Positions 38,620-54,262 of a DNA stretch of 64,000 nucleotides are shown in pieces. The position numbers were made by a program, and so were the translations under genes. Source of the stretch: an uncultured SAR86 cluster bacterium (lineage in GTDB: Bacteria; Pseudomonadota; Gammaproteobacteria; Magnimaribacterales; AG-339-G14); NCBI GenBank assembly GCA_902595715.1, contig CACJRI010000001.1, positions 62,001 through 126,000 of the forward strand. Reading direction: 5' to 3'. Each line of letters begins with the position of its first letter. The stretch's first letter is position 1. Under the pieces are notes generated by a model that did no database searches, was not told the DNA's origin, and saw only the letters and a list, made by a program, of their open reading frames with translations.

Positions 38620-41571
38620 ATGAAAACGATTAAGCTTTTTTTTACTACATTAACTTTCATATTCATAAGTAATTCATCTTTTGCGGATGATTACTCTGAT
38701 GATGCTGCAGAAGTAGATTATTACGTACCTGGCATACTTGCTAATGATGCAATGAGCCAAGTTAACTTTCTTTTGTGTTTTATGGAGAGTATTAATTTTT
38801 CCACTTTTGTCAATAAAGGAGTTTATAAAGCTTTAACTGATGAGGCTAAATGTGAGTCTGCAAGCGGAGCTGATGCAGCTTCTGAAGCAGCATCTGCAAC
38901 AGGCTCATCAGCTAGTGGTGGTGGAGCTGGAACAGGAAATGCAGTTGACGCTATTGAATATACCACTGGCATTTATACAGGGGAAACTTCTGGAAATACA
39001 GTACAAGGAAAAGGTTGGGTAGATATCGAATTGAATATGGGCCAAAACGATACCGTAGTTCCAACAACTGCTTATTTATCTACAACGGTATCTGCAGACA
39101 AGAGTAGTACCAATCGTTTTGGAACTTTTACCATGCGATATGATCTCAGAAACAAACAAATTCATAACCCGCTTGGACTTTCAACAGCTGGTATATCCAT
39201 AAATAAAGGTTATTTAAATGTAAACAACACCACTATCCAGTATCGAGAAACAGGTATGCAAGGTCCAGATAGAGTAATCATCGCTGACTTGACTGATGCC
39301 AACAATATTCAAGGATTTATGCAAACAATTCTTCGTATTGCTGGCGGCGGTGGAATGACAACTTATGCTGTTAGACATCAAGTACAAGTTAACGAAGGTG
39401 CAGATAGATACTGCCAAAAATTTTCTAGTGCTAATGAATATTCTCAGGGAGGTAATGGTCTCTGGACAGAAGGTGCAGCAATCTCTGAAGCTAATCTAGC
39501 AACAGCTATAACCAACGCCCAAAACGGGGGAGGCTTTGTTGATACTGATGGAGGAACTGCAGCTACAATTACTGGTGAACATTGCTGGGATACTAGAAGA
39601 TCTGCAGCAAAAAGAGTGGTATATGAATATGGTACTTACAAAAATTCAGACGGCTCAAGGGCAGACTTAACAACACCTTCCATGTCTTTGGAAGCAAATA
39701 TTACAGATAATGGCTCTCTTTCAGCTCCAATATGGTCTCATGCCAGCTATTGGGGAGTGCATGTTAATCCTACGGATAGGGCAAATGTAACTGACTCAAC
39801 TGTATTTAAAAATAAAAGAAATTCCAGCGATAACAATTCATATAATTTAAGGAAAAATTATTATGAAATTGTAAAAAGAACACGTCAGTATCTTTCGTTA
39901 GACCAACTTGGTGGAGTTTCTTTTCAGTTTTATGCAAATAATTTCAGAGATGGCGGCACTTTTCAAACAAAACTAGGGAATCTTAATTTTCCGAATGCCG
40001 GTAATTGTAATGCTGCTCAAGGTAACTGTCCTGAATACTCAGGAACAATTACTGTCAGCGGTTCTACTGTAACTTTTACTGTAACTCATGGAATGGATTG
40101 GGGAGCAAGAATAATGCCTTTTGAATTGGATAATCCTTTCTCATTTACGGCAGCAAATTGGTCAACTCAAATGACCGACTCAGGCTGGAATAGAAGGATG
40201 CATTTTTGGGATCCTGATTCTCATCAAAGTTACACAGTGCCTTATGCTGCTTTTGGTGACCCTGACTCAACAACTCCTTCCGCTCAAGTTAGAACAAGAA
40301 CAGAAGAAAGAATAAATATCGATCAATTGGCAACAGAAATTTCTAATACTGGCGATAATGCAACGGGTCTATTGTGTATTAGAGAATGTCTTGATGCTTC
40401 CAATATGAATTCTGCTATTGCTGCTGCTTTTACCGCTCTTGAAAATGAGGATAATCCAGGAGCTTTAAACGTTACTCCCTACAAAAATGTAGGAGACTGG
40501 TGGACAGCTACAGTTTATTACGACTCAAATGGTAATGGTGACCAAGATGGAGGAGAGTCAGATATTGCAGCAGGTAACTATAATAATATTGGCGGAGTAA
40601 AAGTTGCTGATGCTCCTCAATATACAATTGTAAATGTTGCAGGAACCAATAAACTCAGAGATGGTACAGCAGGTAATACTTACATAGAATATTCTGGTTT
40701 AAATGGACCAAAAGTAGATGCTAGACAGCATGGCGACTCATTACAAAATTATCGTTATTACATGAAGCCACATACTTACGGCAATAATTGGACAAATAAC
40801 TTTGGTCATGCTTTCCATATGAGAGCTGTGATTAATTCAGATACTAATAAAGCAGCTCTTTATTGCGATGTTTCAGGCGGTAATGCAAGGGGTTACGATG
40901 TTAGGTTTAAAGCTAAAGCAAATGATGCAGCAGTTCATGCTACCGGAGCAACCTCTTATTATTGTGACTATAAAATGTGGGAAGGAGCGGTTGCGACTAT
41001 GTACGATATCAGAGTTAGACAAATGACTGACTATCGACTGTATAACGATACTTCTAGCCAATATGTTAGTGTCTCCGCACCGCAATCAGTTTTATTTACT
41101 GTTCCCTCAAGTGGAATAAACTATAACTTCCCAAACACAAATCTTGCTGGAAAAAAATTCAAACTGAAATTTGAAGGTTACGGAGAGCTTCATAATATTC
41201 CCGGACGAGTAGTAAATACCTGTACAGGCGCAATCTTAGGAAGATATGTTGATGGTGGATGGAACCAGTGTTATCGATACGTACATGAATTTGTAATACC
41301 TGATGCTACTGTTCTTACAAACCTAAGCGGAGGAGACGACTTGAAGATAAGAGCTCTAAGAGGAGATGAATATTTACTTAAGTTAGGAAGTATTCCTGCT
41401 GGAGTAAGTTACTCTAAGTCAGTGAGTGATTTGCCGGCAGCAAATAATATTCAGAACTTATTTTCCGGTACAAATTCCATTGGTACTGTTCCTGCTACTA
41501 CTTTGCCAAGTGCCAACAGTACGGATCCCTCAGTAATTCATGGTAAAACTGTTATAGCTCCATCGAACTAA
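38620..41571 (+). CDS. Large exported protein of unknown function
   Basis: 983 aa; signal peptide MKTIKLFFTTLTFIFISNSSFA; DSNGNGDQDGGESD Ca-binding-like motif; several Cys. Confidence 0.8.
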   Translation: MKTIKLFFTTLTFIFISNSSFADDYSDDAAEVDYYVPGILANDAMSQVNFLLCFMESINFSTFVNKGVYKALTDEAKCESASGADAASEAASATGSSASGGGAGTGNAVDAIEYTTGIYTGETSGNTVQGKGWVDIELNMGQNDTVVPTTAYLSTTVSADKSSTNRFGTFTMRYDLRNKQIHNPLGLSTAGISINKGYLNVNNTTIQYRETGMQGPDRVIIADLTDANNIQGFMQTILRIAGGGGMTTYAVRHQVQVNEGADRYCQKFSSANEYSQGGNGLWTEGAAISEANLATAITNAQNGGGFVDTDGGTAATITGEHCWDTRRSAAKRVVYEYGTYKNSDGSRADLTTPSMSLEANITDNGSLSAPIWSHASYWGVHVNPTDRANVTDSTVFKNKRNSSDNNSYNLRKNYYEIVKRTRQYLSLDQLGGVSFQFYANNFRDGGTFQTKLGNLNFPNAGNCNAAQGNCPEYSGTITVSGSTVTFTVTHGMDWGARIMPFELDNPFSFTAANWSTQMTDSGWNRRMHFWDPDSHQSYTVPYAAFGDPDSTTPSAQVRTRTEERINIDQLATEISNTGDNATGLLCIRECLDASNMNSAIAAAFTALENEDNPGALNVTPYKNVGDWWTATVYYDSNGNGDQDGGESDIAAGNYNNIGGVKVADAPQYTIVNVAGTNKLRDGTAGNTYIEYSGLNGPKVDARQHGDSLQNYRYYMKPHTYGNNWTNNFGHAFHMRAVINSDTNKAALYCDVSGGNARGYDVRFKAKANDAAVHATGATSYYCDYKMWEGAVATMYDIRVRQMTDYRLYNDTSSQYVSVSAPQSVLFTVPSSGINYNFPNTNLAGKKFKLKFEGYGELHNIPGRVVNTCTGAILGRYVDGGWNQCYRYVHEFVIPDATVLTNLSGGDDLKIRALRGDEYLLKLGSIPAGVSYSKSVSDLPAANNIQNLFSGTNSIGTVPATTLPSANSTDPSVIHGKTVIAPSN

Positions 41572-41639: not shown

Positions 41640-42497
41640 TTACAAGGATTCTAAAAAATCTTTTATAGCTACTCCTATTTCATTGGGAGAATGTTCTTGA
41701 ATAAAATGATTTCCTTTTACAGTTATTTCTTGTAAGTTATTCCAGCTTCGAACAAATTCTCTTTGATCTCCAACAAGAATGCTTCCAGGATCGGCATTAA
41801 TGAAAAGTTTTGGAATATTTGAATCCTTATGAAATTCGCCATTTTTTATTACTTCATCAATTACAGCCTGAGGAGAACCATCTACAGGAATTTGTCTTGG
41901 CCAAGTAAGAGTAGGGCGACGATCTTCACCTGCATTTTTAAAGGGACGAATGTATTCAGCCTTTTCTTCATCGGTAAAACCATCCGCAGAATCATTTAAG
42001 AGAATCCTTTCTACAAAAACATTTTTTTCAAGAACAATTTCTTCTCCTGCATCTGAACGCATTAATTGAAAAATGTTTCTTGCATTTTCTGGCCATTGAT
42101 CCCAAGTTAGTGGCATTACGATTGCCTCCATAAATGTAATCGATTTGATTTTATCGGCATTTTCTCTCGCATATTGAAATCCCATTGCAGAACCCCAATC
42201 ATGTATAACCAAATTAATTTCTTCGCCTAAATCTAATTCGTCTAGTAATTTAGATAGATATTTGTATTGCCCATGATATTGATAATCAGGATTATCTATT
42301 CCTTCAAGTTTTTCAGAATCGCCCATTCCTATTAAATCTGGAACGACTATACGGCCCATATCTTCTACATATGGAGTTATATTCCGCCATAAAAAAGAAG
42401 ATGCAGGATTACCATGTAAAAATACTATTGATTGGCCTGCACCTGAATCTATATAAGCCATTTGTTTTCCCAAAATCTCTTTGTACTCCTTGTCCAT
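41640..42497 (-). CDS. Haloalkane dehalogenase, HLD-II (LinB/DhaA-like)
   Basis: 285 aa; HGNPASSFLWRNI, VIHDWGSAMGF (nucleophile D and halide W), ITFMEAIVMP (E), RRPTLTWPRQIPVDG, KLFINADPG, NHFIQEHSPNEIG; strongly resembles LinB over its length. Confidence 0.88.
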   Translation of the reverse strand: MDKEYKEILGKQMAYIDSGAGQSIVFLHGNPASSFLWRNITPYVEDMGRIVVPDLIGMGDSEKLEGIDNPDYQYHGQYKYLSKLLDELDLGEEINLVIHDWGSAMGFQYARENADKIKSITFMEAIVMPLTWDQWPENARNIFQLMRSDAGEEIVLEKNVFVERILLNDSADGFTDEEKAEYIRPFKNAGEDRRPTLTWPRQIPVDGSPQAVIDEVIKNGEFHKDSNIPKLFINADPGSILVGDQREFVRSWNNLQEITVKGNHFIQEHSPNEIGVAIKDFLESL

Positions 42498-42561
42498 TAT
42501 TATTACTCCTGTAAAGTAAATAAATATATCACTTATATAAATAAAGATTTAGGAGAATTAG

Positions 42562-43113
42562 ATGTTTGATCCGGAACAAAGGAGCAGGGCGTTTAACTTT
42601 GCGTTAAGAGCTCAAGGTATATTTGGAACAGTTATGGGAATAACAATATTGTGGTCTTTGTATGCCCTCCTGTTTACTGATTACTCACATATTTTTATTT
42701 CAAAGGTTTTATTAACTGTAATTTGTATCGGATTTGGCACAATAACTCCTTTAATAGATTTCAATGAATCTCATGCTACAAATCCATTGTGGACGGGTCA
42801 TGCACGTTTTCATTTAGTTTGGCAGGTTAATGCAATGATAATAACAGCAGTGCTGTCTATATCTCTGTTGTGGTTTTATTATTCAATTACAAATCACTTA
42901 ATAGTCATTCTTCTTAATTACTTATGGATATTCTCTTTCTATGCAACTGTATTTGGTCTTAAGCTTTTCGATGGAGAATTAAATGATATTAATGGTGTAC
43001 CACCAGTTTTTATCAAAATACTTGGACGAGAGTATGAAATTGATAGAAATATACAAGCTATAACGGGCGGCTTATTTGTAAATTCATATGCTATAGCCTT
43101 ATTTTTTGTCTAA
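42562..43113 (+). CDS. Membrane protein of unknown function
   Basis: 183 aa with several hydrophobic segments; SD AGGAG upstream; divergent from the HLD-II gene. Confidence 0.6.
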   Translation: MFDPEQRSRAFNFALRAQGIFGTVMGITILWSLYALLFTDYSHIFISKVLLTVICIGFGTITPLIDFNESHATNPLWTGHARFHLVWQVNAMIITAVLSISLLWFYYSITNHLIVILLNYLWIFSFYATVFGLKLFDGELNDINGVPPVFIKILGREYEIDRNIQAITGGLFVNSYAIALFFV

Positions 43114-43214
43114 TCTATATTTAACATAATATATATTATACGAATATATAAATATTGATATAGAAGGCTTTAATCAAACACTAAGTATAGAAAAGGCCTA
43201 AACAAGTAAGAAAA

Positions 43215-44126
43215 TTAAAAATATGTCTTTTCTACTAATTTGTCTATTGTGATGAGATCCTTTTGACACTTATCTAAGAAAGTATGTAATTTATTATCAT
43301 CAAAGTTTTCAAATGAAGCTGTATCAAATCTTAGTCTTAAAGTTCTAATCTTAAGGATTATCTTTTCATTTTTAGGGAGGCTGTCTAAACAAAGTCTTAA
43401 TACTGAAAGACATCTTGTTATTGATCTAGGAAAACTATCATCTTGTAAAAGAAAGTTTATTACTTCTTCTCTATCAACCTCTCCTTTCGATACCTTTCTA
43501 AACGCGTCTTGAGCGGACAATATTGATAACAAACTTATCCACTCCATCGTAGAAAAGTCATAAGTTTTTTTATCGCTTTTCGTAATACACAGACAATCTA
43601 TGATTCGCGATATCATATCAATTCTTTCTAAAAATCTACCTAATCTTATAAATTCAAATTCGTATCCTCTCGAAAGATTATCATTTATCGAACTAAAAAA
43701 TTCTTGTGTAAGGTCAACTATATTTGTAATGAAAGGTAATCTTTTTCTTTTATGAATTTTTAGAAAAGTTGCGTTGAAGATATGATCGTGAAGATGATTC
43801 AAACTGATACTTGCAGATTTTGGTAAATCATCCCTAACTGTTTCAATATTGTACTTGGCCATGTCCAAACAATTTTTTATTGAACTAGAATTATTAGTTC
43901 CCTCAAAAAGAAAACTCAAAACATTATCTTCATTATATTTTTTGTATTTTTTTTCATAGTATTGGTTTGCATCTAGAGTATCGATTAATGGTTTCCAGTT
44001 GAGTGAATGATCTACGGGATAATCAAGTATTAATTCTAAATTAACGTCAATCATCCTAGCTATGTTTTCAGTTCGTTCAATATATCTGGCTAACCAGTAA
44101 AGATGTTTGGCACTTCTACTTAACAT
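43215..44126 (-). CDS. Alpha-E domain (DUF403) protein
   Basis: 303 aa; MLSRSAKHLYWLARYIERTENIARMIDVN typical of the alpha-E family. Confidence 0.9.
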   Translation of the reverse strand: MLSRSAKHLYWLARYIERTENIARMIDVNLELILDYPVDHSLNWKPLIDTLDANQYYEKKYKKYNEDNVLSFLFEGTNNSSSIKNCLDMAKYNIETVRDDLPKSASISLNHLHDHIFNATFLKIHKRKRLPFITNIVDLTQEFFSSINDNLSRGYEFEFIRLGRFLERIDMISRIIDCLCITKSDKKTYDFSTMEWISLLSILSAQDAFRKVSKGEVDREEVINFLLQDDSFPRSITRCLSVLRLCLDSLPKNEKIILKIRTLRLRFDTASFENFDDNKLHTFLDKCQKDLITIDKLVEKTYF

Positions 44127-45565
44127 TACGCTTCAACTATCCAAGTATCTTTGCTACCTCCCCCTTGGGAAGAATTCACAACAGTTGATCCTTTTTTTAA
44201 AGCTACTCTAGTTAATCCACCAACCGTTACGTAAGTTTCTTTTCCAGAGAGGATAAAGGGTCTTAAATCTAAGTGACGTGGAGAAATTTCATTTCTACTA
44301 AAAGTTGGTGTTGTGGATAGATCAATTAATGGTTGAGCGACATAATTTTTTGTATTTGCTAAAACCTTCTTTTTGACCTCTTCTTCTGTTTCATTATTTA
44401 AGGTTTTACCAATAACTATTCCATACCCCCCTGCTTCAGCAACAGGCTTTATAACCATTTTTCTAATATTTTGAAAAACGTAATTTCTGTGTTTCTTTTT
44501 ACTCATAAGATAAGTTTTTATATTGGGGAGAATGCATTCCTCATCCAAATAAAATTTAATCATTTCTGGAACGTATCTATAAACTGCTTTATCGTCAGCA
44601 ATACCACATCCAGGGGCATTAACGATAGATACTGTTTTATTTTTCCAACATTTGATTAATCCCTTCACTCCGAGAACACTTTTTGGATTTCCAACTTCAG
44701 GATCTAAAAAAGCATCATCTACCCTTCGATAGATCACATCAACTTTAGATAAGCCTTCAATTGTTTTTTTATAAACAAATCCATTTTTTACAACTAGATC
44801 CCTTCCTTCTACTAAATCTATTCCCATCTGTTGAGCTAAATAGGAATGTTCATAATAAGCCGAGTTATAAATTCCGGGAGTGAGTAAGACTATTTCTGGA
44901 GACTTGGTATTTCTAAAGGATGAATCTACTAACGTTTCATATAACCTAAGAGGATACTCATCAATTCTAGATACGCCATAGTGAGAGAAAAGATCGGGGA
45001 AAACTCTTTTCATTACATATCTATTTTCAAGCATATATGAAACCCCTGAAGGTATTCTTAAATTATCTTCTAATACATGAAAATCACCTTTTATATCTTT
45101 TATTAAATCCGAACCGCAAATATGTGACCAAGCAGAATTAGGTAGCTTTACGTTTTTACAAAAAGAAAAATATGCTTTTGATTTAAGTATCAGATCATCA
45201 TTCATAGAACTTTGTTTTAAAAACTTCTGTTCGTTATAACAATCTTCAATAAATAGGTTTAACGCCTTGGTTCTCTGAATAAGGCCTTTGCTCACTTGAT
45301 CCCATTCCTTCTTTTTAATAATTCTAGGAATAAAATCCAAAGGCCAACTCCTTTCTTCTGAGCCTGTATCAGAATAAACACGGAAATTTATTCCAAGAGA
45401 TTTGATTGCGGATTCAGTAGAGCTATTTAGTTCTTGAAGTTCAGTTAAAGATAAAGATTCAAAGAAGTTGCCAATCTTTCTAATGTGGCCTCTTACTTTA
45501 TTATCAGAATTAATATATTCATCAAAAGATTTAGCCAATTCATAATTTGACCACTTTAATTTCAT
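44126..45565 (-). CDS. Circularly permuted type-2 ATP-grasp protein
   Basis: ATG at 45565 (MKLKWSNYELAKSFDEY); VLEDNLRIPSGVSYMLENR, VDVIYRRVDDAFLDP, VKPVAEAGGYGIVIG, LRPFILSG. Confidence 0.9.
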   Translation of the reverse strand: MKLKWSNYELAKSFDEYINSDNKVRGHIRKIGNFFESLSLTELQELNSSTESAIKSLGINFRVYSDTGSEERSWPLDFIPRIIKKKEWDQVSKGLIQRTKALNLFIEDCYNEQKFLKQSSMNDDLILKSKAYFSFCKNVKLPNSAWSHICGSDLIKDIKGDFHVLEDNLRIPSGVSYMLENRYVMKRVFPDLFSHYGVSRIDEYPLRLYETLVDSSFRNTKSPEIVLLTPGIYNSAYYEHSYLAQQMGIDLVEGRDLVVKNGFVYKKTIEGLSKVDVIYRRVDDAFLDPEVGNPKSVLGVKGLIKCWKNKTVSIVNAPGCGIADDKAVYRYVPEMIKFYLDEECILPNIKTYLMSKKKHRNYVFQNIRKMVIKPVAEAGGYGIVIGKTLNNETEEEVKKKVLANTKNYVAQPLIDLSTTPTFSRNEISPRHLDLRPFILSGKETYVTVGGLTRVALKKGSTVVNSSQGGGSKDTWIVEA

Positions 45566-45608
45566 ATAATTATTAGTATATTTAACAAAACTCAATATAT
45601 CATTCCTT

Positions 45609-45614
45609 TATAAT
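45609..45614 (+). promoter_or_regulatory. Candidate -10 box for the Anbu-type protease gene
   Basis: Perfect TATAAT 29 nt upstream of the ATG; no good -35 seen. Confidence 0.3.
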
Positions 45615-45642
45615 TTTATTGAGGTCCAATTTATAGCCCAAA

Positions 45643-46380
45643 ATGACCTATTGTGTAGCAATCAAAATAGAAGAAGGATTAGTCTTCGCTTCGGATTCCA
45701 GAACTAATGCTGGTTTAGATAATGTCAGCACTTACTCAAAAATGTTTACCTTTAATGTTGGTGACAGAGCTTTTGTTATCTTAACTTCTGGAAATCTTGC
45801 AACTTCACAAGCTGTTTATCATCGAATAGAAAAAGATTTAACTTCAACGGATGGTTCAAGGAGTTTAAATACCTGCGAAGATTTAGAGGATGTAGCTGCT
45901 TATGTGGGAGAGTTAAATGTTGAGTATCAGTCAGTAGCTAATGAAAATCCGTCTCAAAATAGTGTTATTTTAGGTTCTCATTTTATTGTAGGAGGACAAA
46001 TTAAAGGTCAAGAGCCAAATTTAATGCTGGTTTATCCAGAAGGAAATCATATACATATGTCAGACGAACAACCCTATATGCAAATCGGGGAAACTAAATA
46101 TGGAAAGCCTATTTTAGATAGGATGATTCATCCTGACACATCCATAGGAGATGCAGCCAGAGTTGCTCTTCTATCTCTTGATTCAACAATGAGGTCAGAC
46201 TTAACAGTAGGCCCTCCGATTGATTTAATTGTCTTTAAAAAAGATCAAATAAATCTAGATTTTCAAGAGCAATTAAAACTAGATTCCCCTTTCTTTAAAG
46301 AATTATCTGAAATTTGGGCTAAACAAATAGACAAGGGAGTTAAAAAACTACCAAAATTTCATTGGGAAGATAATAGTTAA
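45643..46380 (+). CDS. Proteasome-type (Anbu-like) peptidase
   Basis: 245 aa; MTYCVAIKIEEGLVFASDSRTNAGLDNVSTYSKMF with Thr2 as predicted nucleophile; adjacent to alpha-E and ATP-grasp genes. Confidence 0.88.
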   Translation: MTYCVAIKIEEGLVFASDSRTNAGLDNVSTYSKMFTFNVGDRAFVILTSGNLATSQAVYHRIEKDLTSTDGSRSLNTCEDLEDVAAYVGELNVEYQSVANENPSQNSVILGSHFIVGGQIKGQEPNLMLVYPEGNHIHMSDEQPYMQIGETKYGKPILDRMIHPDTSIGDAARVALLSLDSTMRSDLTVGPPIDLIVFKKDQINLDFQEQLKLDSPFFKELSEIWAKQIDKGVKKLPKFHWEDNS

Positions 46381-46396
46381 AATTTTTTTTCAGAAA

Positions 46397-46424
46397 ATAA
46401 GCCGCTCGTTTATGAGCGGCTTAT
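46397..46424 (-). terminator. Hairpin terminator between convergent genes
   Basis: ATAAGCCGCTC-GTTTAT-GAGCGGCTTAT perfect stem; T-rich tract on the minus-strand side. Confidence 0.55.
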
Positions 46425-46431
46425 AGATCGA

Positions 46432-47163
46432 CTATCTTTCAGCTGGATATGCTTTAACCAATTGAGCAAGTGTTGAATTTACTAACTTTCTGATATTTCC
46501 TACCTTTCTATTGAAAGATTTGAATTCATTTGAAGCGTAAACTTCATCCAGAGCATCATTTAGTTCTTGAATGGAATTAGATCCGTTATACAACATATGA
46601 GATACGTATTTGTTGCCATAAACTACTCTGTTAATACCATAAGAACCAAAAGAATCTGCAGTGGAATCTGTAAGTTGTTTGTATGCTTCAAGATAAGATG
46701 CCTGACTTCCAGTTTTTACCTTAACTTCAATGTTAGAAAAAACTGTATTCAATCTCCAATCTCCTGCCTCTAAAACTAACTCAGTAACATAATTATAGTA
46801 ATCTTCACTAACTGAAGTTTTAGCAAAGGCTACATTCATTTCTGAAGATGCCTCGCAAGAAGCAAAGATATTTTGGCCTAATTGCATTTTGTCATAATCT
46901 TCATACCCAACAAGAATTATATGAGAATGTCCTCCACCCATTCGAGAATAAAGACCCACATTTGCTCCAGATTCGTTTCTCCACTTTGCTGCACATGATG
47001 AAGAATCAAAAGACTCGATAGCAGCTACAAACCCTGCTGGATTAGTAACGTTAAAAAAATGAAATTCGTAAACACCGCTACCAGGTCTTAAGGTATTCTC
47101 ATCAGAAAACAAATTAAAAGATAATGCTCCGGAAAGAATTAAATATATTATTTTATTCTTCAT
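46432..47163 (-). CDS. Exported protein of unknown function
   Basis: 243 aa; signal peptide MKNKIIYLILSGALSFNLFS; SD upstream (tctcct on + strand). Confidence 0.65.
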   Translation of the reverse strand: MKNKIIYLILSGALSFNLFSDENTLRPGSGVYEFHFFNVTNPAGFVAAIESFDSSSCAAKWRNESGANVGLYSRMGGGHSHIILVGYEDYDKMQLGQNIFASCEASSEMNVAFAKTSVSEDYYNYVTELVLEAGDWRLNTVFSNIEVKVKTGSQASYLEAYKQLTDSTADSFGSYGINRVVYGNKYVSHMLYNGSNSIQELNDALDEVYASNEFKSFNRKVGNIRKLVNSTLAQLVKAYPAER

Positions 47164-47172
47164 AACTTTCTC

Positions 47173-47865
47173 CTAATTTCTTGTATAAATGGTTTCACAA
47201 TATTCAAAAGTTTCTTCAACTTCTTCATCTATGTATTGCTGTGCATCATCCCAAGTAGCTGCCCAATCTGCTCCTCTGAAATATTCATCAATAATTTTTC
47301 CAGTTTCTGCTGCTGTTTCGGTAATGGTTCTTATGTGAAACATTCCGGTTTCAGCAAATCCTCCGCCAAGTTGAGCAAAAACACCAATCATCATATTGTG
47401 ACCTGCAGCATCAAGTTCTTTTTGAAGTTTTGTCATTGAATTTGAAAAAGCCTGCCAATCATTCAACTTTGCTCTCCAAAGCCTATGGTATCCATCTCTT
47501 GCTTCAAAATCCTTAAGTGGTTTAAAAGCTGAAGAATATTTGATAGTTCTTAATTGTTTAAGATCAAAATTAGCACTTGCTGGATCATATAACTCAATAA
47601 ATCCTATAGCTTTTTCAACACTCGTAAAAGCATTGTAGATGAACATTTGACCCTGATAGCTTTCTCCTGTTCTGGTTTTGCAATAACCAGCTTGTTCAGA
47701 TCCGAAGTTATCAAAATCTACATTTTCTTTTAAAAAATCAACATATTTATCAATATCTTTCGCTTGAACCATAAGGGTGGTAAATGCTCCTTCTGGAACA
47801 GCGCTAAGATTTAATGAAAATATTGAGCTTAAAAGAAAAATTAGAGATATTTTTATATTTTTCAT
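47173..47865 (-). CDS. Exported protein of unknown function
   Basis: 230 aa; signal peptide MKNIKISLIFLLSSIFSLNLSA; likely cotranscribed with 46432..47163. Confidence 0.65.
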   Translation of the reverse strand: MKNIKISLIFLLSSIFSLNLSAVPEGAFTTLMVQAKDIDKYVDFLKENVDFDNFGSEQAGYCKTRTGESYQGQMFIYNAFTSVEKAIGFIELYDPASANFDLKQLRTIKYSSAFKPLKDFEARDGYHRLWRAKLNDWQAFSNSMTKLQKELDAAGHNMMIGVFAQLGGGFAETGMFHIRTITETAAETGKIIDEYFRGADWAATWDDAQQYIDEEVEETFEYCETIYTRN

Positions 47866-47932
47866 TATTTTCTCCCAAATTATTTATTTAAATATTACAA
47901 GAGAAAAATTAGAATTTTTGTATCAAATTAGG

Positions 47933-48388
47933 TCAATTTCTTTTAATCAAAGAAAAAACAAATAAAATAAATAGAAACAAAGTCATATAAGGTGCGTAAA
48001 CCATTCCAGGAGTAATTCCGTCAGAATAAATCGAATCATTAACAATTGGACTTGAATTTAATACTCTAACAGACCACTCAACTAAAAAAGCTAGGATTAT
48101 TAAAGGAGTCAATGACTTATATTTTATGATGACTATCCAGGCAAAAGCACAAAATATAAGCTGAACTAACCCCCACGCAGAAAAAAAAGCATATATCAGC
48201 GGCATTGGATCTGGAGTACCAGTTAATACTTTTACATTAGCAATATCATGTAATCCAAATTCTTCAAACGACATATGAATTACAGAACGCCAGGTCATTA
48301 AAAGCAAAAATGGTATAAAGGCGTAGAAAACAAATTTATAGCCCAAATAATTATTATCTGCAGATTTGGGAAAAAGCATTTCTAACAT
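47933..48388 (-). CDS. Membrane protein of unknown function
   Basis: 151 aa with about 4 hydrophobic segments; starts 2 bp after the upstream HLD-I stop. Confidence 0.6.
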   Translation of the reverse strand: MLEMLFPKSADNNYLGYKFVFYAFIPFLLLMTWRSVIHMSFEEFGLHDIANVKVLTGTPDPMPLIYAFFSAWGLVQLIFCAFAWIVIIKYKSLTPLIILAFLVEWSVRVLNSSPIVNDSIYSDGITPGMVYAPYMTLFLFILFVFSLIKRN

Positions 48389-48390
48389 AA

Positions 48391-49479
48391 CTAATCTTTC
48401 TTTTTAATAAAATTGGCGAGTAAGTCAGATAGTTCCTTAGGTCTAGTCCATTGATAAAAGTGCCCTCCTCCTATGTGAGGCGCACTTTTTGCATTAGGAC
48501 ACATATTCAAAACATCTCTTTCAGCACCATTGGTTACTGGATCATCTCCAGCAAAAACACTTAAAAAAGGTTTATTCCAATTTTTAAAAATTTCTCTGGC
48601 TTCTCTTACTGCATTTAAAGATTGATCTGGGATTGTAGGAACATGACTTGGCATGGCTCTTGGACCCATTTTATAGGATGGGTCAGGAAATGGAGCCTCA
48701 TACGCATGATCTATTACTTTATTCAATGGGAATAATTTTCTTAATCCTAGTCTAAGAAATAAATAAGAAATAAGTGTCTTAAGAGTAGAATTTTTTCCCA
48801 TCATATTAGACATCAAAAAACCAATAGGGAGATCTTCTGTGTCCCAACAAAATTTCTGCCAATACATAAATTTAAGTGCTGGACTGGTAGATGTTTTATC
48901 ATCGGCAATGTTCTTACCATCCATTTGACTGACTTCTTTTTGCATGGACATCACAGTAAGTTTTATATCGCTATCTCTAAAAGCTTTAACTTTGTTAATT
49001 ACATCTTGAGGAGTGTCAGGGTTATAAGGTAGGCCTGTATTTCCCATTGCGACCTTGAGAAATCTATCTGGCTCATTTGCTACTACTCTCAGTCCTATAA
49101 GACCTCCCCAATCCTGACCGAAAAAGGTTAAATTTTTGAAATCATTAGCTTTAAGCCAATCTGTCATCCAATCAACTTGTCTTTGATATGAATAGTCTTC
49201 TCTGGATGCAGGTTTATCTGACTTTCCGTAGCCAGGTAAATCCGGCGCTATAACTCTTATTCCTGCTTCTACCAAAAAAGGAATCATTCTACTGTATAAA
49301 TAACTCCAAACAGGTTGACCATGCATGGCCAATAGAATCGGACCATCTTTAGGTCCTTCATCAACGTGATGAATTCTCAATTCAGAGCCGTCGTGAGTTT
49401 GTATTGTTGTATAGTTTGGCTCGAAAGGATAATTTTTTACGTTCTCAAAAGCACTATCTGGGGTTCTTAAAATTTTCAT
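48391..49479 (-). CDS. Haloalkane dehalogenase, HLD-I (DhlA-like), cytoplasmic
   Basis: 362 aa; LRTPDSAFENVKNYPFEPNYT, HGQPVWSYLYSRMIPFL, PDLPGYGKSDKP, FFGQDWGGLIGLRV, AGDDPVTNG, GGGHFYQW. Confidence 0.85.
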   Translation of the reverse strand: MKILRTPDSAFENVKNYPFEPNYTTIQTHDGSELRIHHVDEGPKDGPILLAMHGQPVWSYLYSRMIPFLVEAGIRVIAPDLPGYGKSDKPASREDYSYQRQVDWMTDWLKANDFKNLTFFGQDWGGLIGLRVVANEPDRFLKVAMGNTGLPYNPDTPQDVINKVKAFRDSDIKLTVMSMQKEVSQMDGKNIADDKTSTSPALKFMYWQKFCWDTEDLPIGFLMSNMMGKNSTLKTLISYLFLRLGLRKLFPLNKVIDHAYEAPFPDPSYKMGPRAMPSHVPTIPDQSLNAVREAREIFKNWNKPFLSVFAGDDPVTNGAERDVLNMCPNAKSAPHIGGGHFYQWTRPKELSDLLANFIKKKD

Positions 49480-50405
49480 AATTCAAATTTAGAGTTGGAT
49501 AAAGATTCACATACAGAATTAAATTCTTGCATGGTTTGTTTGATAATCTGTTCTACTGGTAATACCTCATTTATGAGTCCAATAGACTGACCAGCTAAAG
49601 CAGGCGCAGCATTCATGTCGCCGCCAAAATATAAATCTTTTATTCCGCTAAGAGCAGACATATCCATTAACCCTTCTTCATAAATCTTATCGGTTAACTC
49701 TGTCTTTAAAGCCCTAATACAAGGTTTTGCTTTTTTATTAAGTATGTAGGTTCCTTGTTCGGAACCATTTACGATTGCACCTTTGAAATTTTCATGAACT
49801 GGACTTTCTATGGATGATACAAATCTTGTTCCCATTTGAATACCATCAGCACCTGCTGCGAAAGCCGCTGCCATTCCTATACCGTCGACAATACCTCCAG
49901 CAGCTACAATAGGTAGATCCGTGTGTTTACGAATAGATTGAATCAAAACATGTAGGCCAACTTCTTCGGGGCTTTTAAAACCCCCTCCTTCTGTTCCTTC
50001 AACGACTAATCCATCTACACCTGCATTCACTGCCTTTAGGGCTCCTGCTAGGCTTGGAACTGCGTGAAATACTTTGATATCTGCTTCCTTAAGCTTATGA
50101 ATATATTTCGCTGGATCTCCTGCAGAAGTTGTAACAAATTTAACATTTTCTTCTATTACTACTTCCAACATACTTTCATCCGAAAGAAATAAAATTGGAA
50201 GATTCACTCCAAATGGGCTATTCGTAAGAGAAGCCATTTTTCTTATTTCATCTTTACACTGATCTACTTCTCCCGATGACGTTTCAATAATCCCAAAACC
50301 TCCAGCATTTGATACAGCGGAAGCAAGTTGACTCCTAGCAATCCAGCCCATTGGTGATTGAATAATTGGATATTTGCAACCCAACATTTCAGTTATTCTA
50401 TTCAT
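49476..50405 (-). CDS. Nitronate monooxygenase / 2-nitropropane dioxygenase-like flavoprotein
   Basis: Likely start MNRITEMLGCKYPIIQSPMGWI; GGFGIIETSSG, GVDGLVVEGTEGGGF, PIVAAGGIVDGIGMAAAFAAGADGIQMGTRFVSS. Confidence 0.88.
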   Translation of the reverse strand: MNRITEMLGCKYPIIQSPMGWIARSQLASAVSNAGGFGIIETSSGEVDQCKDEIRKMASLTNSPFGVNLPILFLSDESMLEVVIEENVKFVTTSAGDPAKYIHKLKEADIKVFHAVPSLAGALKAVNAGVDGLVVEGTEGGGFKSPEEVGLHVLIQSIRKHTDLPIVAAGGIVDGIGMAAAFAAGADGIQMGTRFVSSIESPVHENFKGAIVNGSEQGTYILNKKAKPCIRALKTELTDKIYEEGLMDMSALSGIKDLYFGGDMNAAPALAGQSIGLINEVLPVEQIIKQTMQEFNSVCESLSNSKFEL

Positions 50406-50407
50406 AT

Positions 50408-51433
50408 TTACTCCACTAACGATTGACAATTGTTTGCTGTTAAAAAACTTAATACTTTTTCCTGATTTATATTATCAAGATCTCTAAATTCATCTCTTAT
50501 CCAATCAAGACACTTTGCTTGATAAGGAAATGATTTCTGTTTCCAAGGATAACCTGCCAGGTCTACAGACCATTCTTTTTTACCTTCTCCGATTGCTTTA
50601 TGATTTTCTATTAGAGTTGGCACATAAGAGACGGCTAACTCTTTAAAAAGATCGTGTATTGAGTCGCTAAGGGAGTCTAAAGAGATATCTTCCTCGACAT
50701 AATCTAAGCCTCCTCTATCATCAAGTGTGTTTACATATGCAACTGTTCTAGGAGAAATTTGATGTGCTATTCTTCTGGGAGTAGGATCAAATCCGACTAA
50801 TTGAGTAAATTGCCCATAAACTGCAAAATCGCATGAAGATGGAAAGTTACCAAGTAGAAATGGATGCTTTTTAAATTGTTCTTCAAAAATTGAAAGTACA
50901 TTTTTGTAGCTTTTGTCTATAAACTCAGCAGTTTCTTTGCTAGAGCCTACTACCCATAATCTGTCTATTTGTCTTTTTGCAAAATGTTCTTTAAAGAATG
51001 CCAACTCATCGTCTTTCAAAGAACTGTTTATGCCCAAAGGTAAAATGGTTCCTGCATTATCTGCATCCTCATCAAAATGCCATCTATAGTGGAACATAAA
51101 TTTTGTACACCATTCGTCGCCAAAGTCCTCAAGGATAAAATTTATAAAGTTTAGAGCTGGATCCTTGGGGAGCACTGATCTGTCAGGATATTTTTCTTCA
51201 AACTCTCTTATAAGAGGAGTTGAGTCGGTAACTGCAGTAGCTTGACCATCTCGATCTAATATAAATACTGGCAAAAGAATAGGTTTTGGAGGTTCGATGT
51301 TCATTTTCTTAAGAACATCTTCTGGTTGACCCCAAATTACTTCATATGGAATTCTCTTATATCTTAGATAAGCAATCATCTTCCTGGTATATGGTGATGC
51401 TACATTCCCTATAAGCTTTATTGAGTCTGTCAT
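50408..51433 (-). CDS. Glutathione S-transferase family protein
   Basis: 341 aa; thioredoxin-like N-domain LIGNVASPYTRKMIAYLRYKRIPYEVIW, DSTPLIREFEEKYPDRSVLP; C-terminal helical domain FLLGNFPSSCDFAVYGQF. Confidence 0.82.
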   Translation of the reverse strand: MTDSIKLIGNVASPYTRKMIAYLRYKRIPYEVIWGQPEDVLKKMNIEPPKPILLPVFILDRDGQATAVTDSTPLIREFEEKYPDRSVLPKDPALNFINFILEDFGDEWCTKFMFHYRWHFDEDADNAGTILPLGINSSLKDDELAFFKEHFAKRQIDRLWVVGSSKETAEFIDKSYKNVLSIFEEQFKKHPFLLGNFPSSCDFAVYGQFTQLVGFDPTPRRIAHQISPRTVAYVNTLDDRGGLDYVEEDISLDSLSDSIHDLFKELAVSYVPTLIENHKAIGEGKKEWSVDLAGYPWKQKSFPYQAKCLDWIRDEFRDLDNINQEKVLSFLTANNCQSLVE

Positions 51434-51536
51434 GAGAATACTCCTAAAATCGAAAAATTATCTTACCAAATTTATATCATTTTTATTAAAGAAAGGAGAT
51501 CTGGTTTGTTAATCCTTTAGCTATTTACAGAAATTT

Positions 51537-52637
51537 TCAATTTTTAGGTGGTAAATCCGCTACTGGCTTTCCTTGAATAAAATCACTAATGATTTGCGCG
51601 AGCTCGGGACCAACTTCTTCCTGCACAAAATGACTTGCGCCTCCTAAAGTTATAACAGTTGGGTTTGGAATACGTTCTAGAAAAACAGCCTTCATTGGAA
51701 GAGTAATTCTTTCATTTTCTCCAAAAGCTACTAGGAAAGGTTTATCCCATTTTTCATACACTTCTTTCCATAATTTTTCATTTTCTTGAAGTTGAGTTGG
51801 AATAAGATAAGGCCAAACATGCGCTCCTGCTTTATATAAACCCGAGGGATAAGGAGCTTCATAAGCATAAGCTTCCTCTTCTGATAAATCTATTCCGCCA
51901 AAATTTTTAATGATTCCAGGAATATTCATATCATCTGCATAATATGAATATGCTATCCAATTACTAAACATTGAAATTCCTGTAGAGGCAGAAGGATTTT
52001 CAACTGTCAATGCTTCTTTGGCTATGGACATTAACTCTTCGAAAGTAATCGGTCCGATCCACCAAACCCTGAATTGAACAAATTTTTCAAATAGCCAAGC
52101 TGATATGCCAGATCGAGCAACCATTCCTGTATTGGATACGACAACGTTGTCAAAGCGATCCGGTAACTCAGCGACTACTCTTAAACCTACTAAACCACCC
52201 CAATCTTGACCAAAGAAAGTTGCATTCTGAAGATTAAGTTTTTGGACTAATTCCTTCATGACCTCAACATGATGCTTGTAAGAATAGTCATATTTTGAAA
52301 TAAACTTATCTGATTTACCAAAACCAACACAGTCTGGAACAATTACTCTATGTCCTTGCGCAGTTAATACAGGTATCATTTTTCTAAACAAATAACTCCA
52401 GGCAGGTTCACCGTGAAGCAGAAATATTGGATCCGCATCTCTTGGGCCTTCATCAAGATAATGAATTCTCAAACCATCAATCATCATATAATTGGGTTTA
52501 AAAGGATAATCTTTCAGATTTTCAAATCTTTCATCTGGAGTTCTTAAAACGCCCTCTTTAATCTCATCTCCAAAAATATTTGTGGAAATAAAAAAATTAA
52601 CTATTAAGAAAATAAAGAAACCTAGAATTGACTTCAC
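51537..52637 (-). CDS. Haloalkane dehalogenase, HLD-I-like, with N-terminal signal peptide
   Basis: 366 aa; GTG start with SD AAGGAGG 8 nt upstream; signal MKSILGFFIFLIVNFFISTNIFG; LRTPDERFENLKDYPFKPNYM, HGEPAWSYLFRKMIPVL, FFGQDWGGLVGLRV, ASHFVQEE. Confidence 0.83.
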   Translation of the reverse strand: MKSILGFFIFLIVNFFISTNIFGDEIKEGVLRTPDERFENLKDYPFKPNYMMIDGLRIHYLDEGPRDADPIFLLHGEPAWSYLFRKMIPVLTAQGHRVIVPDCVGFGKSDKFISKYDYSYKHHVEVMKELVQKLNLQNATFFGQDWGGLVGLRVVAELPDRFDNVVVSNTGMVARSGISAWLFEKFVQFRVWWIGPITFEELMSIAKEALTVENPSASTGISMFSNWIAYSYYADDMNIPGIIKNFGGIDLSEEEAYAYEAPYPSGLYKAGAHVWPYLIPTQLQENEKLWKEVYEKWDKPFLVAFGENERITLPMKAVFLERIPNPTVITLGGASHFVQEEVGPELAQIISDFIQGKPVADLPPKN

Positions 52638-52670: not shown

Positions 52671-52699
52671 AATATAGAATATGACAGTATGTGTGTCAA
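52671..52699 (-). promoter_or_regulatory. Sigma70-type promoter of the exported HLD-I gene
   Basis: Minus strand: TTGACA (52699-52694), 17-nt spacer, TATATT (52676-52671). Confidence 0.65.
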
Positions 52700-52704: not shown

Positions 52705-52725
52705 TATGACAGCGCTACTGTCATA
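52705..52725. promoter_or_regulatory. Operator-like site 1, palindrome TATGACAG-N5-CTGTCATA
   Basis: Perfect 8-bp inverted arms, ends 5 nt before the TetR ATG. Confidence 0.65.
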
Positions 52726-52730
52726 TTCAT

Positions 52731-53306
52731 ATGAATAAGCTAAAAAAAGACGGAAGAAAATTAAGAAGTGAGTCTACTTCAGATCACATTTTGAATACTG
52801 CTATAAAAATTGCCCGTAAGGGCAACATAGATAACATGTCCTTTAATTCTATTGCAAAAGAAGCAAATATAGGAACTAGAACAATTTTTCGTCATTTCAA
52901 AGATCAAGAAACGCTGCAAGAAAGTTTAGATCAAAAACTTGGCGAAGAATTTACCAATGCCTTTTCTTTAATAAATAAAACGGATAACTTAGAAAATAGA
53001 ATTGAAAATGTTTCCTCTATTCTTATTAAACTCTACGTAAAAAATCAAAATATTATCCGTTGGAATCTTCGCAATATCTGGAGAGACAAAAATTTAAGAA
53101 AAAATATGTTTTCTTGGAATCAAATTTTAAGAAATTTTGTTTATTCCATTCTCCCTGAGATTCAAGAAAAAAAGAAATCAGAAAGAGAAATTATATTTGA
53201 ATGTATGTCTTTTATGTTTTTTTTAAGACTCAAAGTTGTTCAAGGATTAGATGAAAAACAAATCAAAGAAATTTTTACATTAAATACAAAAAATTATTTA
53301 AGTTAG
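52731..53306 (+). CDS. TetR/AcrR family transcriptional regulator
   Basis: 191 aa; HTH region ILNTAIKIARKGNIDNMSFNSIAKEANIGTRTIFRHFKDQETLQESL. Confidence 0.88.
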   Translation: MNKLKKDGRKLRSESTSDHILNTAIKIARKGNIDNMSFNSIAKEANIGTRTIFRHFKDQETLQESLDQKLGEEFTNAFSLINKTDNLENRIENVSSILIKLYVKNQNIIRWNLRNIWRDKNLRKNMFSWNQILRNFVYSILPEIQEKKKSEREIIFECMSFMFFLRLKVVQGLDEKQIKEIFTLNTKNYLS

Positions 53307-53308
53307 CT

Positions 53309-54262
53309 TCAAGAAACTCTTCTAATATTCTCAACAATTTCTTTAATTATTTCTGGCACTAACTCTTCAGGAATTTCATGCCCCACACCTTCCATAATCA
53401 TTCTTTTCGAGTCTTTTATGCCATCTGCTAAAGCAATGCCATGATCTAAGGGCAGGATAGCATCTTCTGTTCCATGAATAATTAGCGCAGGAACTTTAAT
53501 TTCGTGAAGTCGACTGGTTCTATCTGGACTTGCTCCAACTGCAGCTCCATGAAGAGCGAAAGGATTATTTCCATGCGCAATAACTGGCTTTAACTTATCT
53601 CTAAACTCTTGTTCATTAAAAGGAAAACGCGACCCAGTAAGTTGGCGATAAATTTCAACAACCCCATCTTCTATTCTGCCTTTAAGGTTAAATACAAAAG
53701 ACTTTTTCATAGCCTCAATCAATTCTTTGGTTGGCCCAGATAATGAAGCATTTTGTATTCCTGGAGAAGTCATGATGGGAGTAATGCTCAAAACTTTTTC
53801 TGGATAGTCTAAGGCGATGATCTGTGTAATCATTCCACCCATTGAAGCTCCAATGATATGTGCTTTTTCAATTTTTAAAGCATCCATTAGTGATACAGCA
53901 TCTTTGGCCATATCTGATAAATCATATTGTATTGAGGTAGATTCGCTAAACTTAAATCTTCCTTTTTCATCAACAGCCAAACCAAAAATGCTATTCACTA
54001 TCATTTTTAATAGAAAATTAGGAAGAATTTTCAAAATTTTATTAAAAGCAGGTTCCTTTCCAAACCATGTAGTTTTACCAACATCTCTGTTATCAAATCT
54101 AACTACATGAAAATCGTTTGCAACTAAATGATCAATAAACTCTTGATCCCATTGCATGCAATTAGCATTAGCTCCCATTATAAGAAGAATTGTTTCTTTA
54201 TTTTTATCACCGAATTCTTCATACCAAATATCTATATCATTTGCTTCCACTATAGTTCCCAT
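53309..54262 (-). CDS. Alpha/beta hydrolase
   Basis: 317 aa; nucleophile elbow IGASMGGMI, LIIHGTEDAILPLDHG, GVGHEIPEELVPEI. Confidence 0.88.
   Translation of the reverse strand: MGTIVEANDIDIWYEEFGDKNKETILLIMGANANCMQWDQEFIDHLVANDFHVVRFDNRDVGKTTWFGKEPAFNKILKILPNFLLKMIVNSIFGLAVDEKGRFKFSESTSIQYDLSDMAKDAVSLMDALKIEKAHIIGASMGGMITQIIALDYPEKVLSITPIMTSPGIQNASLSGPTKELIEAMKKSFVFNLKGRIEDGVVEIYRQLTGSRFPFNEQEFRDKLKPVIAHGNNPFALHGAAVGASPDRTSRLHEIKVPALIIHGTEDAILPLDHGIALADGIKDSKRMIMEGVGHEIPEELVPEIIKEIVENIRRVS

Follow-up and report, generated by a model that had tools for sequence, protein, structure and literature searches.

A SAR86 locus encoding predicted haloalkane dehalogenases of two subfamilies, among them a probably exported HLD-I variant with glutamate at the catalytic acid position

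Introduction

What benefit might a marine bacterium draw from three neighboring genes for haloalkane dehalogenases (HLDs)? The question is raised by a 64-kb stretch of DNA (the window, in which all positions below are counted) from an uncultured SAR86 cluster bacterium, whose genome sequence is 1.21 Mb in size and 83% complete. An earlier note on this DNA had described three HLD-like enzymes of two subfamilies and had suggested a locus for naturally produced marine organohalogens. We name the three proteins HLD-Ix (51537-52637), HLD-Ic (48391-49479), and LinB-like HLD-II (41640-42497). SAR86 and SAR11 rank with the most abundant bacteria of the surface ocean and have very small genomes; that two or three dehalogenases are kept therefore suggests a steady benefit. 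What HLDs do in nature is a long-standing question, because many of them have been studied with man-made pollutants. We report that the window encodes an apparently ordinary HLD-II, a presumably cytosolic HLD-I with an enlarged cap, and a probably exported HLD-I variant in which glutamate stands in for the catalytic aspartate, the last two in one gene run next to a TetR gene.

Results

The open reading frames (ORFs) confirm three minus-strand genes at these coordinates, and curated-model scores, nearest solved structures, and active-site residues all uphold the earlier assignment of one HLD-II and two HLD-I proteins. HLD-Ix and HLD-Ic reach 318 and 328 bits, respectively, on the NCBIfam model NF002043 (PRK00870 haloalkane dehalogenase; cutoff 265 bits), and the LinB-like protein reaches 356 bits on NF002938 (haloalkane dehalogenase; cutoff 241 bits). 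The nearest solved structures are DpcA (PDB ID 6f9o), DccA (5esr), DmrA (4mj3), and DhlA for both HLD-I proteins, and 7pw1 (57% identity), 4brz (HanR), and LinB for the HLD-II protein. The D-W pair that had been read in all three is indeed present (D145/W146 in HLD-Ix, D123/W124 in HLD-Ic, and D100/W101 in the HLD-II protein). By itself this pair would be weak evidence for an HLD, because the same genome holds, in another place, an epoxide-hydrolase-like fragment with the sequence H-D-W-G-G. HLD identity was decided by the cap Trp, the position of the catalytic acid, an HGEP, HGQP, or HGNP motif instead of HG-aromatic-P, and the curated-model and profile scores. A contig-end fragment (C15) tried as a fourth HLD of this genome reads HGWP, scores low on the HLD models, and is epoxide-hydrolase-like; four more genome matches are other α/β hydrolases by the motifs read from their ORFs. 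A phylogeny, one of the checks proposed earlier, groups both HLD-I proteins with known HLD-I enzymes. The tree was calculated with a quick method, and long reference branches are flagged; its individual clades appear well supported, and the deep placement of HLD-Ic beside DccA is uncertain.

The published catalytic pentads are Asp-His-Asp plus Trp-Trp for HLD-I and Asp-His-Glu plus Asn-Trp for HLD-II (PMC6920932). HLD-Ix keeps the Asp nucleophile, the His base, and the Trp-Trp halide site (D145, H336, W146, and W227), and its model score, PDB ranking, tree position, fold search, and profile all place it closer to HLD-I than to other α/β hydrolases. When a profile was built from 27 HLD-Ix relatives, the nine solved HLD-I sequences ranked at the top (DpcA with 357 bits), and no epoxide hydrolase was found among the best 60 PDB matches. 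The catalytic Asp after strand 7 is missing, however, and our alignment puts Glu309 in its place. Because of this replacement, HLD-Ix is best regarded as a variant of HLD-I descent and not as a canonical member.

The replacement is not confined to this protein. All 107 aligned HLD-I rows keep the Asp nucleophile, the Trp after it, and the His, and 105 of 106 have the cap Trp; the acid is Glu in 57 rows and Asp in 50. Glu occupies the position in all 57 rows of the HLD-Ix clade (from SAR86, Pelagibacteraceae (SAR11), PS1/OCS116/Rhodobiaceae, SAR92, and Halieaceae), and Asp in its sister groups. Exported relatives that branch more basally (Halioglobus and others) also retain Asp, as do some exported SAR86 proteins (L100 and L119). 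On the tree, the Asp-to-Glu exchange takes a single change and marks a clade. In one small alignment, the acid column is shifted by one residue around an indel; we take Glu309 as the acid position because the large alignments place it there, the GxxD/E spacing agrees, and SAR11 members have lost the first Glu.

In HLD-Ix relatives, the N terminus is extended by a hydrophobic stretch, which in three of them contains a lipobox-like Cys, whereas the reference HLD-I proteins and HLD-Ic begin near a conserved RTPD motif (the exceptions are two short HLD-I proteins other than HLD-Ix, two rows whose start was wrongly chosen, and one in which an RT motif comes early). The GTG start codon of HLD-Ix has an AAGGAGG site in front of it. 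Judged by hydropathy, HLD-Ix is likely exported and probably resides in the periplasm. The SAR11 HLD-Ix proteins (L059-L077) read HGLP for HGEP, and their genes lie directly before an enoyl-CoA hydratase-like gene, a family also located near HLD-Ix relatives in L093, L095, and L101.

HLD-Ic contains the full HLD-I pentad (D123, H340, and D313 with W124 and W207), and the curated model, PDB ranking, tree, and fold search again argue for HLD-I kinship above other α/β hydrolases. AlphaFold2 models of the two HLD-I proteins have a mean predicted local distance difference test (pLDDT) of 94.4 and 85.5, and fold searches with both returned DccA, DpcA, and DmrA as the best matches, with template modeling (TM) scores of 0.85-0.90 on target length. 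Compared with DhlA, HLD-Ix and HLD-Ic each have ∼30 more residues in the segment from strand 6 to the cap Trp, and in both models the extra residues form additional cap helices. The DhlA reference was verified residue by residue against the PDB; those for DpcA, DccA, DmrA, and 7avr, taken from printed alignments, are short by a few residues. HLD-Ix reads HGEP and HLD-Ic HGQP, neither of which is the H-G-aromatic-P motif of epoxide hydrolases (PMC8244358). Epoxide hydrolases are further defined by a Tyr-Tyr or His-Tyr ring-opening pair in the cap; on this point, the alignment shows a Trp at the cap halide position of both proteins.

The N, E, and H residues claimed for the LinB-like HLD-II are in place as N30, E124, and H264, which together with D100 and W101 make up the HLD-II pentad; kinship likewise points to HLD-II. 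The pentad is complete in nine SAR86 homologues as well. We found no notable difference from the LinB/DmbA/HanR group, of which the protein appears to be an ordinary new member.

HLD-Ix and HLD-Ic belong to a run of seven minus-strand genes, from 52637 down to 46432, which overlap or are closely spaced. HLD-Ix is followed by a long glutathione S-transferase (GST)-like protein of 341 residues (50408-51433), a nitronate monooxygenase (NMO)/FabK-like flavoenzyme (49476-50429), HLD-Ic, a 151-residue hydrophobic, membrane-like protein (47933-48388), and two proteins with probable signal peptides at the end of the run (230 residues, 47173-47865; 243 residues, 46432-47163); the last three have no family assigned. 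The NMO gene overlaps those of GST and HLD-Ic, and the next gap measures 2 bp. The genes of the GST and NMO-like enzymes noted earlier alongside the dehalogenases thus share one operon-like run with both HLD-I genes. The LinB-like gene belongs to another transcription unit, set apart from the run by one gene on the plus strand, a pair on the minus strand, and a second plus-strand gene.

A TetR-family regulator (52731-53306, plus strand) is divergent from the run. The 93-bp gap between it and HLD-Ix holds two palindromes, TGACAGTATGTGTGTCA (52682-52698) and TGACAGCGCTACTGTCA (52707-52723), which we presume to be TetR operators (strand is not applicable to either). In the whole 64 kb, TGACA-N7-TGTCA is present at exactly two places, both of them in this gap (0.04 expected), and among nine relatives the pattern is exact in six and near-matching in three. 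An exported α/β hydrolase with Asp nucleophile, Glu acid, and a divergent TetR gene recalls Cif/CifR (PMC8244358), and the HLD-I proteins could accordingly be epoxide hydrolases, HLD-Ix being a Cif-like exported enzyme controlled by a repressor similar to CifR. We consider this very improbable and rejected it as first choice: the HGEP/HGQP motifs, the halide-binding Trp pair including the cap Trp, scores above the HLD cutoffs, and the structure ranking, with epoxide hydrolases absent from the best 60 PDB profile matches, all speak against it.

HLD-Ix shares 88-92% identity with its orthologues in the nearest SAR86 single-cell genomes, in which gene order is shared; the genome is therefore of the SAR86 type. 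A recent mobile island for pollutant degradation was considered and rejected, because the genes of the run keep their order within the genus and the ORFs listed around it include no mobile-element gene. We surveyed 121 genomes of the SAR86 order, many of them incomplete; the counts hold at the thresholds used. HLD-Ic is found in 82 of them and in 19 of 20 genera, LinB-like homologues in 67, and exported HLD-I homologues in 55 (59 matches minus four HLD-Ic), some of the latter being of the Asp type. Linkage of HLD-Ic with the long GST recurs in the synteny survey that had been proposed: the two genes lie within 6 kb in 67 of the 73 genomes having both. In 21 neighborhoods compared, three of which contain only an ordinary short HLD-I, the partner genes form a recurrent set whose order changes: GST (16), the 151-residue protein (15), DUF1330 (14), and NMO (13), and less frequently a metallo-β-lactamase-fold protein (10), sulfatase (7), further GSTs (6 and 5), and a DSBA-like protein (4). 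The long GST is the most constant neighbor of HLD-Ic in the SAR86 order. In another SAR86 family (L119, L120, and L121), the HLD-Ic module is longer and includes DUF1330, metallo-β-lactamase-fold, DSBA-like, and three GST genes.

An exclusive association of HLD-Ic with SAR86, suggested by 274 genomes of the class, was overturned by copies in PS1, SAR92, and Halieaceae (56-73% identity). In PS1 alphaproteobacteria, HLD-Ic is encoded beside GST at 72-73% identity, and in two of three genomes also beside DUF1330 and the 151-residue protein. This identity, together with the same partner genes, suggests that the module has passed between plankton lineages that are only distantly related. Among nine genomes checked outside SAR86, all three enzyme types occur in three PS1, one SAR92, and one Halieaceae genome. 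Two of four SAR11 genomes checked carry HLD-Ix and an HLD-II at 44% identity. The phylum genome sample contained no further HLD-Ix carriers.

Does the set share a function? The three dehalogenases could be separate enzymes that are neighbors by happenstance in this genus. The LinB-like gene does lie outside the operon-like run, HLD-Ix stands alone in a stable housekeeping neighborhood in most SAR11 loci and in another such neighborhood in a different SAR86 family, and in 19 of the 41 SAR86-order genomes with both, the exported HLD-I gene and the HLD-II gene fall on separate contigs. In the other 22, however, in which they share a contig, they are always within 15 kb, in differing arrangements across four genera. 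HLD-Ix and HLD-Ic, moreover, belong to one TetR-preceded run, and the three types co-occur in unrelated lineages, which makes the absence of a common function fairly improbable. We also regard the three-HLD set as no chance finding, because the other α/β hydrolases examined in the genome are not HLDs, homologues of each HLD are common across the order, and the gene linkage is recurrent.

Several features border on these genes. Upstream of the TetR gene, an α/β hydrolase related to macrolide esterases (53309-54262; 223 bits on NF052610, cutoff 420) is kept in close relatives. The island between the HLD-II gene and the HLD-I run (43215-46380), where by sequence reading the minus-strand pair encodes circularly permuted ATP-grasp and alpha-E proteins and a plus-strand gene a proteasome-type protease, comes and goes, being present in most but not all close relatives. 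Adjoining the HLD-II gene on the plus strand (38620-41571) is a 983-residue protein with a probable signal peptide, which is 92% identical in relative L037 and 31-47% identical or missing in others. In G003, of the same genus, an in-frame stop interrupts both the HLD-Ix and HLD-II genes, and in L038 both matches are in pieces. A contig filed under a Flavobacteriaceae metagenome-assembled genome (L034) carries the start of the SAR86 HLD-Ix operon at 74-92% identity and is probably a misbinned SAR86 contig.

Discussion

Judged from sequence and structure models, dehalogenase chemistry is likely for the three proteins. Starting from the observed genes, residues, predicted folds, linkage, palindromes, and co-occurrence, we infer activity, export, regulation, substrates, and order of steps, and with them the role of the locus. 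By a narrow balance, we favor a TetR-controlled, inducible hydrolytic dehalogenation system for marine organohalogens. In such a system, HLD-Ix, exported and probably periplasmic, would hydrolyze haloalkanes from seawater by the HLD mechanism: D145 would attack the halogen-bearing carbon, W146 and W227 would hold the leaving halide, and H336 would activate water, supported by Glu309 in place of Asp. Within the cytosol, HLD-Ic would perform the same chemistry on a compound that suits its larger cap, the GST and the NMO/FabK-like enzyme may process electrophilic substrates or oxidized products, and the nearby HLD-II could provide a second specificity. TetR would bind both palindromes and be released upon binding a halogenated compound or product. 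Organohalogens produced by marine organisms are the probable natural substrates. The suggestion of a marine organohalogen locus thus stands in part: that unrelated marine plankton also have the set agrees with a common function in the sea, whereas the HLD-II gene is outside the operon and its linkage to HLD-I is lineage-restricted. Beyond the earlier note, our analysis adds the predicted export signal, the Asp-to-Glu exchange at the acid, the enlarged caps, the presumed TetR operators, and the HLD-I/GST/DUF1330/membrane-protein module.

Several points weigh against the inducible dehalogenation system. The activity of every member is a prediction from sequence or fold, the GST and flavoenzyme families are broad and indicate no single pathway, and the restricted linkage of HLD-II counts here as well. 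Glu309 in HLD-Ix and HGQP in HLD-Ic are non-canonical for HLD-I, and α/β hydrolases of HLD ancestry can change their reaction, with Renilla luciferase among the structure matches of the HLD-II protein. The strongest alternative is that the scaffold was kept and the substrate class changed: the HLD-I proteins would keep the HLD fold and Asp nucleophile and now act mainly on another electrophile (an epoxide, an activated ester, or a sulfate ester of hydrophobic algal compounds), with the locus serving the aromatic/steroid-like breakdown proposed for SAR86. The non-canonical Glu and HGQP, the enlarged caps, and the GST, sulfatase, and metallo-β-lactamase-fold partners in other genera would fit, as would a SAR86 isolate paper that proposes degradation of aromatic compounds and a role for the many GSTs (PMC11582366). 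Nearly all 107 sequences keep both halide-binding Trp residues, however, which another substrate class would not obviously need, and the nearest relatives are all HLD-I by model, profile, and fold; we rate the substrate change as rather unlikely.

If the dehalogenation system is active, it would act as a biological sink for halocarbons in the ocean, some of which influence the chemistry of the atmosphere, and the co-occurrence of the three types in unrelated marine plankton suggests a widespread, unstudied route to break down or neutralize halogenated compounds in the sea. More tentatively, and with considerable doubt, we propose that an exported HLD lineage with Asp-His-Glu and Trp-Trp residues operates in the periplasm of abundant surface-ocean lineages (SAR86, SAR11, PS1/OCS116, and SAR92), and that together with the cytosolic HLD-I/GST module and HLD-II it constitutes an unrecognized microbial sink for biogenic organohalogens in sunlit seawater. 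The Glu-for-Asp clade, in turn, represents a natural experiment on enzyme mechanism. A SAR86 isolate, Magnimaribacter mokuoloeensis HIMB1674, is in culture (PMC11582366) and makes the question testable, provided that the genes are present in it or in a later isolate. The isolate paper makes no mention of halogens (PMC11582366), and a partial literature search did not link SAR86 or SAR11 to HLDs, which is weak evidence of absence. In a macroalgal metagenome, HLD genes are the most abundant dehalogenation genes, and GSTs are discussed beside them (PMC10919026).

Among known systems, the LinB/DmbA/HanR group shares its full HLD-II pentad with the LinB-like protein (54-57% identity to 4brz and 7pw1). 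DpcA, DccA, DmrA, and DhlA have the fold, nucleophile, base, and both halide-binding Trp residues in common with HLD-Ix and HLD-Ic, at 30-40% identity over most of their length; unlike them, both proteins carry ∼30 extra cap residues, HLD-Ix adds a predicted export signal and the Glu acid, and HLD-Ic has HGQP for HGEP. An exchange of the catalytic acid inside an HLD subfamily is known from DmmarA, an HLD-II in which Asp replaces Glu (PMC10619424); its direction is opposite, and the acid lies on strand 6, whereas that of HLD-Ix is at the strand 7 position. In Pseudomonas aeruginosa, Cif is an exported Asp-nucleophile α/β hydrolase, and the TetR repressor CifR binds the intergenic region with the operon (PMC8244358), a layout similar to that of HLD-Ix. 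Cif, however, is an epoxide hydrolase with a His-Tyr pair, whereas HLD-Ix has a Trp-Trp halide site and HLD-I kinship.

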